From contig NZ_LGTB01000011.1 in NCBI RefSeq assembly GCF_001238275.1, forward strand, positions 124,001-188,000: a stretch of 64,000 nt of DNA, written 5' to 3'. The first letter of the stretch is position 1. The number at the start of each line of letters is the position of its first letter. Below, piece after piece: positions 1,630 to 7,585 of this stretch. The notes beneath the pieces were generated by a model. The model was not told the origin of the DNA and searched no databases. It saw only the letters and a program-made list of their open reading frames with translations. This stretch comes from Bradyrhizobium viridifuturi (GTDB lineage Bacteria; Pseudomonadota; Alphaproteobacteria; Rhizobiales; Xanthobacteraceae). The position numbers were made by a program, and so were the translations under genes.

Positions 1630-1719
1630 GGAGAGGTGGCCGAGTGGCTGAAGGCAACGCTTTGCTAAAGCGTCATACGGTCTCAAGCTGTATCGAGGGT
1701 TCGAATCCCTCCCTCTCCG
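1630..1719 (+). tRNA. tRNA-Ser (anticodon GCU)
   Basis: A complete class II tRNA. The acceptor arms GGAGAGG (1630-1636) and CCTCTCC (1712-1718) pair. The anticodon arm ACGCT-TTGCTAA-AGCGT presents GCT, which reads AGC/AGU serine codons. A long variable arm follows, then the T arm GAGGGTTCGAATCCCTC. The discriminator base is G1719 and CCA is encoded at 1720-1722. Confidence 0.97.
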
Positions 1720-1757
1720 CCAGCCACACAACCGGCTGCCCAACGAGGGTGTCCAAG

Positions 1758-3709: not shown

Positions 3710-3934
3710 TTACTGGATCCCGATGCACTGCCGCTTGCCGTCATTGGGGCAGTAGAAGCAGGCCTTCGAAGAGCAACCCGACAAGTCTCCAGCCTTGTTC
3801 AGGGTGTAGTTGCACCCTGCGGTTCTGTCGCACGCCTTCACGACTGCCCCGATCGGGGCGGCAGACGCCGACTGACCGAACGTGAACAGAGCAATCGCAG
3901 TTGCAACGGCGAAGCTCAGTGTAATTGAACGCAT
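3710..3934 (-). CDS. Small secreted cysteine-rich protein
   Basis: A 74-residue protein. Residues 1-25 are a clean Sec signal (SFAVATAIALFTFGQ, then SASA-A cleavage). The mature ~49 residues contain six cysteines (KAC, AGC, SGC, KAC, FYC, RQC), enough for three disulfides. It lies on the minus strand next to another small exported protein (4071-4307) and the heptad-repeat membrane protein. Function is unknown; a periplasmic or extracellular disulfide-stabilised peptide is the natural reading. Confidence 0.75.
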   Translation of the reverse strand: MRSITLSFAVATAIALFTFGQSASAAPIGAVVKACDRTAGCNYTLNKAGDLSGCSSKACFYCPNDGKRQCIGIQ

Positions 3935-4070: not shown

Positions 4071-4307
4071 TCAGCCGCTGCCGCGGGTCGATGGATCGAG
4101 ATTCCTGTTCTCGCCCGGCGGGATCGGCCCGAAGCCTGGATAGACGTAGCGGTCCGGCGGCACGACCTGTTCGCTTGGATGGAAGATGAGGTGCTGTCGC
4201 ACGCGCCGGTGATGCCCGGTTGCGGCGTCAGCCGCACTGCACAGGGTCACGAGGGGTAGCATCAAGGCCAGGGAAATAGGTAACGAAATTCGCAAGGCAA
4301 CACGCAT
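4071..4307 (-). CDS. Small exported His/Arg/Pro-rich protein
   Basis: A 78-residue protein. The ATG at 4307 is preceded by GGAGTGATCGCC and opens directly into a signal peptide (MRVALRISLPISLALMLPL, then SAADA), so it is preferred to the longer frame starting at 4376. The mature part is basic and proline-rich (HHRRVRQHLIFHP, YVYPGFGPIPPGENR). Small Bradyrhizobium exported proteins of this style are common and uncharacterised. No function is assigned. Confidence 0.65.
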   Translation of the reverse strand: MRVALRISLPISLALMLPLVTLCSAADAATGHHRRVRQHLIFHPSEQVVPPDRYVYPGFGPIPPGENRNLDPSTRGSG

Positions 4308-4460
4308 GGCGATCACTCCGTTTCCGCGAACAAGTGATCGCGGACCGCGGCACCCTATTCTCGTCCGACCTTTCACACGGGATCAAAACCACGAGATCAG
4401 CAAGGTATCGCCTGCGAGTGATCACGCGCAGCTCCTGCGAGCCGGCAGTGCGAGCGATGT

Positions 4461-6308
4461 CTAATGATTTGCCTTAGCCGGGCGAGCCGGTGTCCATTCC
4501 GCCCAGTACTTCAGGAGCGGGATCGCACTTCCAACCCAACCTCCCGCCATCTTAGCCTCTTCCTCCTGATCCAGCATGCCGCCGGCAGCAGAGAGTTCGC
4601 CGATCGAATAGCGCCGCGATGGACACAGGATTTCACTCGCTTGCGCCCAGCAGTCCCACTCGCCAATCGTGACGCCTCCGAGCGCACCCGTCTTGCGGTT
4701 ATAGAGAATTGCATTAGGTGATGAATTGGAGACGATGACAAGCCAATTTGGATCGCTGGCTATGCCGGTCGCGTAGAACGGCCACTCGCCGCCGAACAGG
4801 TCTCCGCGGCCAGGCATCATCAGCAGCGTGCCATCGCTCGCCGCCAACGCACCATAGGCAGCACGCACCGTCTTATCGAACATCTGGTAACTCGGCGCAT
4901 CGAACCGGACGGATCCGTGCGAGGCAACGAAGGGATATCGAAACCTCGATTGATCAGCGATGTATTTCCATCGCGGCAACCCGAACTCGAAAGACGTCGT
5001 AGCCGCGTTGCCGATGGCGACGATCCTGTCCTGGTAAGTTGACAAGACATAAGCTGCGTCTTTGTCCCGATAGGCGCAGAACGGCGCCGACAGATTGGCA
5101 AACGTCGGACCGTTCGCGCCGTATATGTCCTTCAACTGAAGGCCCTTCGTCATCGTGAAAACGACGCCGGCCATTGGATCAGAACCTATCAGATCGCCCG
5201 AGCTCTCGTCTTCGTTGATGCAAGTGGCGAATTGAATCGATTCAGTGCCGATATTCGCAATCCTGGCGAGCTCTTGCCCGGTTTCAATTGACAGCTTGAC
5301 GATGCTCCCCTGGCCCGAGGCGAAGACCTCTTCTCCGATGATCGTGATGCCGTGAGAGGCCAGCAGATCCCGCTTCCAGCGCGGAACCCATTTATCATCC
5401 ACTCGTTCGAACATGGAGACCACGTTGCCGTCGTAGTCCGCCACGCCCATAAATCGACCTCCTCGCGAAATCGCCACTCCCTCCGCGCCCTTGATTCCGA
5501 TATCCGCAATGCGCTCGGTGACCCGAAGCCTCGCACCGGTCGCGGTATGCTCAAGCTGCGCGACGATGATGTCGCCTCCGGCGTAGTTCGCGATGAAGAT
5601 CCGATCATAGAAGGCCGAGTAGAACACGGCCGTCGGATTCCAGACGGGGAGCTCGAGGTCGATCTCGAGCGGGACCGCGGTGCGCTGATCCTGGTCAAAC
5701 AGATAAACGTCCCGATAATTGGCGATGAGAAACTCTCGCGCTGAGATTTTCGTCATGGAGACCGGCGTCATCGGTCCATCTTCGCTCTTGAGCAGCGAAA
5801 CGCGAATTGAGTTGCCCTGCAGATCGGGCGCGGGCCGACCGCGCTTCTGCCGATCGATCGCCACACCAAGGTCCGCCCGTAGCCTCTTTGCGGTCTCCTC
5901 GAGCTGACTTGCAGTCTGCTCCAGCCTGTTTGCAGCCTCCCCCTGCTTGCCTGCGGTCTGCTCCTGCTTGCTAGCAATCTGTTCTTGCCGACTTGCAGTC
6001 TGCTCAAGCCTGCCCGCGGCCTGCTCCTGCCTGCCCACAGCCTGCTCTTGCCTGCTTGCAGCTTGCTCCTGTCTGCCCACAGCTTGCTCTTGCCTGCCTG
6101 CAGCCTGCTCCTGCTTGCTTGCAATCTGCTCTTGCTTGCTCGCGGTTTGCTCCTGCGCGTCCAGGCGGTTGATGATCATAGCCGTGCGTTGACCGCTGAA
6201 CAGCAGTGTCTCCGTCAGGAGATTCGCGGCGGTTCTGATCTTGTGCGCGAACAAGACCAGGACGATCGCGCCAACCAGAAGCGTGCCATATGCGATCTTC
6301 TTGTTCAT
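4461..6308 (-). CDS. Membrane-anchored protein with 13 tandem heptads and a propeller-like C-terminal domain
   Basis: A 615-residue protein. Residues 7-21 are a membrane anchor (YGTLLVGAIVLVLFA). Residues 52-142 are 13 uninterrupted heptads on the theme QEQ-x-A-(S/G)-(K/R), expected to form a long helix or coiled coil. From about residue 170 the sequence is beta-rich with repeated short motifs (FLIANYRDVYLFD, RIFIANYAGGDI, MGVADYDGNVVSMF, EVFASGQGSIVKL), as in NHL- or WD-like propellers. The topology suggests a periplasmic propeller held off the membrane by a stalk. Two small exported proteins lie just downstream on the same strand. Family and function are not recognised. Confidence 0.8.
   Translation of the reverse strand: MNKKIAYGTLLVGAIVLVLFAHKIRTAANLLTETLLFSGQRTAMIINRLDAQEQTASKQEQIASKQEQAAGRQEQAVGRQEQAASRQEQAVGRQEQAAGRLEQTASRQEQIASKQEQTAGKQGEAANRLEQTASQLEETAKRLRADLGVAIDRQKRGRPAPDLQGNSIRVSLLKSEDGPMTPVSMTKISAREFLIANYRDVYLFDQDQRTAVPLEIDLELPVWNPTAVFYSAFYDRIFIANYAGGDIIVAQLEHTATGARLRVTERIADIGIKGAEGVAISRGGRFMGVADYDGNVVSMFERVDDKWVPRWKRDLLASHGITIIGEEVFASGQGSIVKLSIETGQELARIANIGTESIQFATCINEDESSGDLIGSDPMAGVVFTMTKGLQLKDIYGANGPTFANLSAPFCAYRDKDAAYVLSTYQDRIVAIGNAATTSFEFGLPRWKYIADQSRFRYPFVASHGSVRFDAPSYQMFDKTVRAAYGALAASDGTLLMMPGRGDLFGGEWPFYATGIASDPNWLVIVSNSSPNAILYNRKTGALGGVTIGEWDCWAQASEILCPSRRYSIGELSAAGGMLDQEEEAKMAGGWVGSAIPLLKYWAEWTPARPAKANH
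5883..6155 (-). repeat. 21-bp tandem repeats encoding heptads
   Basis: Thirteen consecutive 21-bp units encode residues 52-142 of the 615-residue protein. Units 3-7 are the most alike (QEQAAGR, QEQAVGR, QEQAASR, QEQAVGR, QEQAAGR); the edge units are more diverged, as expected for an array grown from the middle by slippage. Confidence 0.85.
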
Positions 6309-6568: not shown

Positions 6569-7474
6569 TCAAGCACGCTCCGCTCGCAACAGCGGTCGGG
6601 GAAACGCCTGTGCGCAGGCGACACCGAGCAACGCTAGGCCGCCGCCGATGACATGGAATGACCTCACCGGCTCGCCCAGCATCACGATCGCGGCCGCGGC
6701 GGTCAGCACTGGCAGCAGGTTCATGAAAATCGCGCAGCGGTTCGGACCGAGCTGGGCGACACCGCGAATCCACAGGAACGGCAGCACCACCGACGCCAGC
6801 GCGCCGGCATAGACGATCAGCGGCCACGTCTCGGCGTTGATCTGACGTAGCGGCGCCGGCGTCGCAAGGAAGGCGGGAAACATCACGGCCAGCGCGCACA
6901 GCGCCTGCATGTAGGTGGACTGCCAGCCGGTGATCGGCAGATTCCAGCGCTTCAGCAGCACGCCGTACAGCGCGTAGACGATCGCGGCCAGCAGCATCAG
7001 GGCGTCGCCCGCATGCACGCCGTTTTGCAGCAACGACGACAAGTCGCCGCCGCTGACGAGATAGACGAGGCCCGCAAACGACAGGGGAGCGCCGCAAATC
7101 ATGCCGAGCGTCGGCCGCTCGCCGAGCAGCGCTGCACTGAGGCCGACGGTCAGGAGCGGCGTCAGCGCGGTGAAGACAGCCATGTTGGTTGCAGTCGTGG
7201 TCTCCGCCGCCAGATACGACAGGCTCTGGAACAGGCACATCGCCAGGAAGCCGAGGATCGCGAGCGGCCCGAGATGGGGCCAGATCGCGCCGCGATCGTG
7301 CCAGGCGGCGCGCGCCACGAACGGAGACATCAGGAGGACCGCGACCAACAGACGATAGAAGGTGATCGCCTGCGGACCGATGGTGTGCGCCGACAGACGG
7401 GAGACGATGACGTTGCCCGCCCACAGCACGATGGCAACGAAGGGATAGAGAAGTGCGGCATTCTTCTTGAGCAT
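6569..7474 (-). CDS. EamA/DMT-family transporter
   Basis: Inner-membrane drug/metabolite exporter of the ten-helix EamA type. The 301 residues contain two tandem repeats of about five helices, beginning LLYPFVAIVLWAGNVIVSRL and, in the second half, PITGWQSTYMQALCALAVMF. Both start as EamA halves do, and the C-terminus has the usual GEPVRSFHVIGGGLALLGV motif. The ATG at 7474 was chosen over the TTG at 7510. It is divergent from the AraC gene at 7586, which may regulate it. Substrate unknown. Confidence 0.88.
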   Translation of the reverse strand: MLKKNAALLYPFVAIVLWAGNVIVSRLSAHTIGPQAITFYRLLVAVLLMSPFVARAAWHDRGAIWPHLGPLAILGFLAMCLFQSLSYLAAETTTATNMAVFTALTPLLTVGLSAALLGERPTLGMICGAPLSFAGLVYLVSGGDLSSLLQNGVHAGDALMLLAAIVYALYGVLLKRWNLPITGWQSTYMQALCALAVMFPAFLATPAPLRQINAETWPLIVYAGALASVVLPFLWIRGVAQLGPNRCAIFMNLLPVLTAAAAIVMLGEPVRSFHVIGGGLALLGVACAQAFPRPLLRAERA

Positions 7475-7585
7475 GACCTGACGGAGCGTTGGTGAAGGAG
7501 GCTCCAGCAACTACCCGTCGCGCCGTGGTCCGTCTCACGCTAGAATGACCACACCTAGCGAGATTGGGACATGCGAGATTAAGAC

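Follow-up and report, generated by a model that had tools for sequence, protein, structure and literature searches.

The closest described counterpart of the protein considered here is TolA. As presented in PMC3477136, the E. coli tolA gene contains 13 imperfect repeats of 15 or 18 bp, which encode a helical domain lying between a membrane anchor and a periplasmic domain; the same source gives 8-16 copies among 234 isolates and describes synthetic copy-number variants that differ in stress tolerance. According to PMC12204202, species differ in the length of TolA domain II, from 110 residues up to 335, and a helical domain II is found mainly in gamma-proteobacteria and is anomalous elsewhere; an SHLS motif in the membrane helix marks the TolA/TonB force transducers. 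Another envelope protein, Lpp, has been lengthened experimentally by two or three heptads (PMC5736177). The second element of the comparison is the beta-propeller, in particular that of the NHL type. A membrane-anchored bacterial propeller of this kind is PknD, with its NHL sensor domain.

The window, i.e., the whole 64,000-nucleotide stretch of a Bradyrhizobium viridifuturi contig (NZ_LGTB01000011.1) that was analyzed, carries on its minus strand a gene with an ATG start (4461..6308) for a 615-residue protein, which has orthologues in four further genomes of the genus. From the N-terminus onward, this protein displays a single hydrophobic segment (residues about 5-23; 6240..6296, minus strand), a stalk of 13 heptads encoded by a 21-bp tandem repeat (residues 51-141; 5886..6158, minus strand) and a propeller region (residues 157-601; 4506..5840, minus strand). 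Within the latter can be distinguished a core matching six-bladed NHL propellers (residues about 158-432; 5013..5837, minus strand), a stretch of low confidence with pLDDT below 50 (residues 445-494; 4827..4976, minus strand) and a possible seventh blade (residues about 511-547; 4668..4778, minus strand). The hydrophobic segment, the heptads and a model with structural matches thus bear out the succession of an anchor-like segment, stalk and propeller proposed in the preliminary description. Its further statement that no named family has this architecture stands insofar as Pfam and NCBIfam return nothing at their curated cut-offs and no curated family covers the whole protein, but not with respect to the fold, which is a known one of the NHL type. 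Additionally, the best match in PHROGs, a collection with no cut-off, has an E-value of 0.12, and nothing on this propeller family was found among open-licence papers.

We consider it an evenly balanced proposition that this is an anchored periplasmic NHL-type propeller on a stalk, coming from a polysaccharide-associated family and binding a glycan or its export machinery. In such a scheme, it would be a bitopic inner-membrane protein with one N-terminal membrane helix as its anchor, the remainder being periplasmic, with a polar heptad helix carrying the NHL-type beta-propeller. The propeller would bind, or scaffold, a surface glycan or part of the export machinery of that glycan, and the stalk would fix its working distance from the membrane, in the manner of the repeat-variable helix of TolA.

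The best 19-residue Kyte-Doolittle mean of the window protein is 1.85, at residue 6, and from residue 81 on the values do not exceed 0.89; by the same measure, the hydrophobic maximum begins at residues 5-11 in the other four orthologues and in three paralogues. From this we infer that the N-terminal segment serves as a membrane anchor and not as a cleaved signal, although it could instead be a cleaved signal peptide. Further, the sole cysteines of the protein (Cys 363, 411, 553 and 562) are invariant in all eight Bradyrhizobium copies, which fits disulphides in the periplasm. The N-terminal segment and these four conserved residues together suggest an envelope location. The propellers of the five orthologues are free of gaps over all 445 codons, and dN/dS values of 0.12-0.21 in all ten orthologue pairs indicate purifying selection. 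The first 50 residues seem less constrained than the propeller, with dN/dS values of 0.34-0.72 (six pairs from four of the five orthologues, with few substitutions).

Orthologues are present in at least five of the 265 genomes of the genus, all at one syntenic place, the named carriers being B. macuxiense BR 10355, Bradyrhizobium sp. C9 and Bradyrhizobium sp. RD5-C2. Eight of the 265 genomes gave matches, namely the five orthologues, a remnant in genome G381 and two that are stalk-like only (G064, G450). To trace this locus, the 101-residue neighbor of the propeller gene was used: it is matched in 25 of 80 relatives, and five relatives without a match to the propeller gene were examined (G329, G376, G515, G024 and G309). 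Of these, G024 and G309 were dropped, as no other flanking gene was found in the stretches, and locus L071, which repeats L004, was counted once. The resulting nine syntenic loci comprise five with the gene, one with the remnant (G381) and three that are empty (G329, G376, G515). In the empty ones, the gene for an EamA-type transporter, which in the window lies upstream of the propeller gene (6569..7510, minus strand; PF00892, E 1.1e-38; nine of nine loci), and that for the 101-residue protein are side by side. The remnant in G381 (L070:4010-4162) retains 51 residues of the propeller gene between the same neighbors, and the gene is in the course of being lost in that genome. Within the phylogeny built on four flanking genes, a sister pair of G381 and G515 (99%) falls inside the carriers, the nodes above it having supports of 83, 100 and 98%; hence, the gene was lost at least once. 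The grouping of G329 and G376 has a support of 57%, and in these two the gene may have been lost or may never have been present. The losses imply that the protein is dispensable in the relatives concerned.

The persistence of the surrounding genes also bears on the two small proteins, exported by appearance, whose proximity the preliminary description had pointed out. The 101-residue protein (4071..4376, minus strand), which has no Pfam match, is found in nine of the nine syntenic loci, and the 74-residue protein (3710..3934, minus strand) in eight of nine, three of the loci lacking the propeller gene and one having a remnant. The implied link is thus not upheld; an obligate partnership is unlikely, given that the neighbors persist where the propeller gene is missing, and we place both proteins, like the EamA-type transporter, outside the system. 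The 74-residue protein, with its six cysteines, likewise lacks a Pfam match. A tRNA-Ser (gct) gene lies near the locus (1630-1722, plus strand); the gene order around it is common to the nine genomes, so that no island is evident. A promoter scan upstream of the propeller gene, covering one promoter type, found none.

The stalk consists of 13 consecutive heptads in an unbroken register. The first seven read AQEQTAS KQEQIAS KQEQAAG RQEQAVG RQEQAAS RQEQAVG RQEQAAG, and the last six RLEQTAS RQEQIAS KQEQTAG KQGEAAN RLEQTAS QLEETAK. The number of heptads given in the preliminary description is therefore correct, whereas its pattern QEQxA[SG][KR] fits only seven of them strictly, the others being variants. 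The lag-7 identity of the stalk is 0.62, a value reached by none of 20000 composition-preserving shuffles (best 0.30), and at the DNA level the array is recovered by TRF as a 21-bp unit with 11.9 copies and 72% matches. The stalk query matched only itself in its own genome at E<=0.001. Over the 57 heptads of the five orthologues, the Glu is preceded by Gln in 46 cases and by Leu in 11, and three positions beyond this preceding residue all 57 have Ala, Thr, Ile or Val, in agreement with the earlier remark that Gln and Ala take the place of Leu. If fully helical, the 13 heptads (91 residues) would measure about 13.5 nm, bringing the distance from membrane to propeller to about 20 nm. This length and the width of the periplasm are of similar magnitude. 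The stalk is helical in a full-length model, but the model is poor (pLDDT 48.9), and the helix and its register are consequently weakly supported by it; the loosely packed or surface-exposed helix bundle of the preliminary description would be a putative arrangement of the stalk.

The orthologous stalks have 7, 10, 12, 13 (the window) and 15 heptads, with no remainder; 13 and 15 are the counts of one pair of relatives, the remaining carriers having 12, 10 and 7. Any 21-bp repeat, irrespective of what it does, is expected to change in steps of seven residues by slippage or recombination, and the stalk in the lineage of the window copy would have grown and shrunk by gain and loss of such units. 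In alignment, the paralogue's short linker falls at the Leu-bearing end of the array, and the Leu is kept in the last two heptads of all five orthologues; together, these suggest that the array may have grown from that end. It is conceivable, if somewhat doubtful, that the array is a neutral product of slippage, for which any length would do and which has no adjustable role. The differing copy number in all five orthologues and the loss of the gene in some relatives speak for this view. Nevertheless, all five retain Leu in the two final heptads as well as the Gln/Ala pattern, even though neighboring repeat copies within one array have a DNA identity of 71-79%, and the shortest array still has seven heptads. 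A much stronger version of the preferred reading, in which species tune the height of a glycan-binding propeller by gain or loss of 21-bp units, the stalk following periplasmic geometry or the length of the glycan made by the strain, we regard as a long shot.

Beyond the orthologues, at least three of the 265 genomes of the genus, all among the five orthologue carriers, contain a short-stalked paralogue, which is 59% identical to the window protein. In the 289 genomes of the class, at least one other genome (G817) has two adjacent propeller homologues, and among 72,556 plasmid records one, from Pseudomonas frederiksbergensis, has a further homologue, with 22.8% identity. No further member was found among the candidates scored in 296 family, 347 order and 349 phylum genomes, the own genome apart. 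The presence counts at the levels of genus, family, order, class and phylum are lower bounds, with up to four candidates scored per genome. They leave out the stalk-only matches (Thermomicrobium plasmid H2, G064 and G450), and also outside them are the matches in G654 and G758, both with an E-value of about 5e-4, and that in G1134, where the open frame has 83 residues (E 2.7e-7).

The genomic context of these relatives is the source of the functional proposal. The paralogue adjoins a glycosyltransferase (PF00534, family-4 type) and a second gene without a curated match, the product of which weakly resembles glycosyltransferases. Its 19 kb also include genes for an Asn_synthase amidotransferase, NusG-type and winged-helix regulators, a hexapeptide transferase, a Gfo/Idh oxidoreductase and a methyltransferase. 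The cluster with the G817 homologues encodes a UDP-sugar dehydrogenase, a Gfo/Idh-hexapeptide fusion, a DegT aminotransferase, a glycosyltransferase, a UDP-GlcNAc 2-epimerase and, again, an Asn_synthase amidotransferase, and one of its genes is 49% identical over 305 residues to the unassigned glycosyltransferase-like neighbor of the paralogue. The two adjacent propeller homologues of G817 (L027:7808-11980) differ from each other, the second being extended by a long additional region at its C-terminus. On the Pseudomonas plasmid, the homologue adjoins an ABC transporter with a Wzt_C domain, asnB and glycosyltransferases. This homologue, which is encoded in a polysaccharide cluster (L017:5812-8931), has 1039 residues; we take its N-terminus to be lipobox-like, and its long C-terminal part has no Pfam match at E<=0.1. 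Across these three lineages, the propeller family thus appears to recur in surface-polysaccharide clusters together with asparagine-synthase-type genes. Within its cluster, the paralogue is an accessory gene: it was not found (matches above 40% identity) between the same two cluster genes in G516, G381 and G515 (L085, L086, L087), from which it follows that the cluster does not need it. By the same threshold, neither the paralogue nor the second flanking cluster gene was found in the G376 stretch. The unassigned neighbor of the paralogue has no match in two of nine genomes (G413 and G329).

A glycan or glycan-export partner as the ligand is suggested solely by this context of the relatives. 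Against a role in polysaccharide biology stands the position of the window copy itself, which is outside any polysaccharide cluster: its flanks encode EamA, AraC, LysR and SLT proteins, and no glycan genes adjoin. On the preferred scheme, the short-stalked paralogue would be nearer to the polysaccharide context and the window copy would be a relocated one. The same facts could be accommodated by a sensor or scaffold that serves a protein partner and has no polysaccharide link, the setting of the relatives not being transferable to the relocated copy; NHL propellers often bind proteins or RNA, and G413, which has no match to the neighbor gene of the cluster, does carry the window gene. However, relatives in three lineages are placed in polysaccharide clusters, and the three genomes with the cluster paralogue, related as they are, all have the window gene as well, as against at least five of 265 overall. 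We hence regard the sensor or scaffold as unlikely.

In a further alternative, the propeller is an enzyme (a lactonase, esterase or lyase) tethered in the periplasm, with the stalk as a mere spacer. As a single sequence, the propeller part has no match at E<=1 among PDB sequences, and the window protein has none at E<=1 to the Pfam NHL model PF01436; the Pseudomonas homologue scores 15.5 bits against PF01436, below its gathering score of 20. The search against propeller families that had been envisaged at the outset thus gave nothing in Pfam with one sequence, but profiles do reach NHL domains. A profile of nine sequences, distant members included, retrieves the NHL domains of TRIM2/TRIM3 with E 2.7e-10, one of ten sequences, with the Pseudomonas member omitted, retrieves them with E 4.9e-7, and the eight Bradyrhizobium copies alone reach NHL domains weakly (E 0.0029). 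These matches argue for a relationship by sequence to NHL domains. The AlphaFold2 model of residues 157-601 (pLDDT 74.2, pTM 0.74), which has a mean pLDDT above 80 in 23 of its first 28 ten-residue blocks, yields 1329 PDB matches at E<=0.001 with Foldseek, and the best superposition by VIA-align is on the NHL domain of Lin41/TRIM71 (6fq3_A; Z 27.5, rmsd 2.6, 250 aligned). Residues about 158-432 are accordingly predicted to form a six-bladed NHL-type core. Inspection by eye, followed by location in the sequence, gave seven blade-like motifs, at residues 193, 238, 287, 328, 373, 420 and 524, with spacings of 41-49 and then 104; a blade-motif pattern recovered two of the seven positions (238 and 373) in addition to N-terminal stretches. 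The last part of the model has four further strands of moderate confidence, coinciding with the motif at 524, so that a seven-bladed ring is possible.

The enzymatic reading draws on the Lactonase family PF10282, whose cut-off is passed by one of three distant homologues (26.9 versus 21.7 bits) and which is matched at E<=0.1 by four of the ten propellers scanned. Additionally, profiles match a bacterial 6-phosphogluconolactonase (3scy, E 1e-4) and PpgL (E 0.31), and the structural matches include streptogramin B and virginiamycin B lyases, paraoxonase, the lactonase RPA3624 and strictosidine synthase. However, the window propeller has no match to any Pfam family, PF10282 included, and the top Z values belong to the NHL domains of TRIM71, Thin and TRIM2, which bind rather than catalyze. 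A tethered enzyme is therefore improbable in our estimate. Two further ideas were rejected. For an origin from phages or other mobile elements, neither the window protein nor a distant homologue had a match in 50,697 phage records, and viral contigs gave 48 pattern-matching stretches, none of them confirmed; for a function in defence, the best PADLOC match has an E-value of 0.025, to the N-terminal and coiled region.

Returning to the described systems, the window protein would resemble TolA in a presumed N-terminal anchor, in imperfect repeats of variable number that are putatively helical, and in a C-terminal domain, the periplasmic location of which is presumed in the window protein. As helical TolA domain II is anomalous outside gamma-proteobacteria, the comparison is one of analogy. 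The window protein is distinct from TolA: a string search finds no SHLS motif in it, its C-terminal domain is a propeller, its repeats are of 21 bp and not of 15 or 18, and no tol gene is found among the flanking genes scanned around the window copy. With the NHL propellers (TRIM71/Lin41, TRIM2 and Thin), residues about 158-432 would share their fold (Z 24.6-27.5 for the model), in contrast to an identity of 12-17% and the lack of a Pfam NHL match, and the window protein adds the low-confidence stretch, the possible seventh blade and the heptad stalk. The seven-bladed Lactonase family PF10282 is matched by distant homologues, and the window protein has seven blade motifs by eye, but its own propeller does not match the family. 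The gene points to a propeller family without a curated model, which recurs beside asparagine-synthase-type amidotransferases in surface-polysaccharide clusters. The stalked propeller can be placed beside tolA as a further candidate for an envelope protein with an anchor and with a reach determined by the number of tandem repeats, and five species already range from 7 to 15 heptads.
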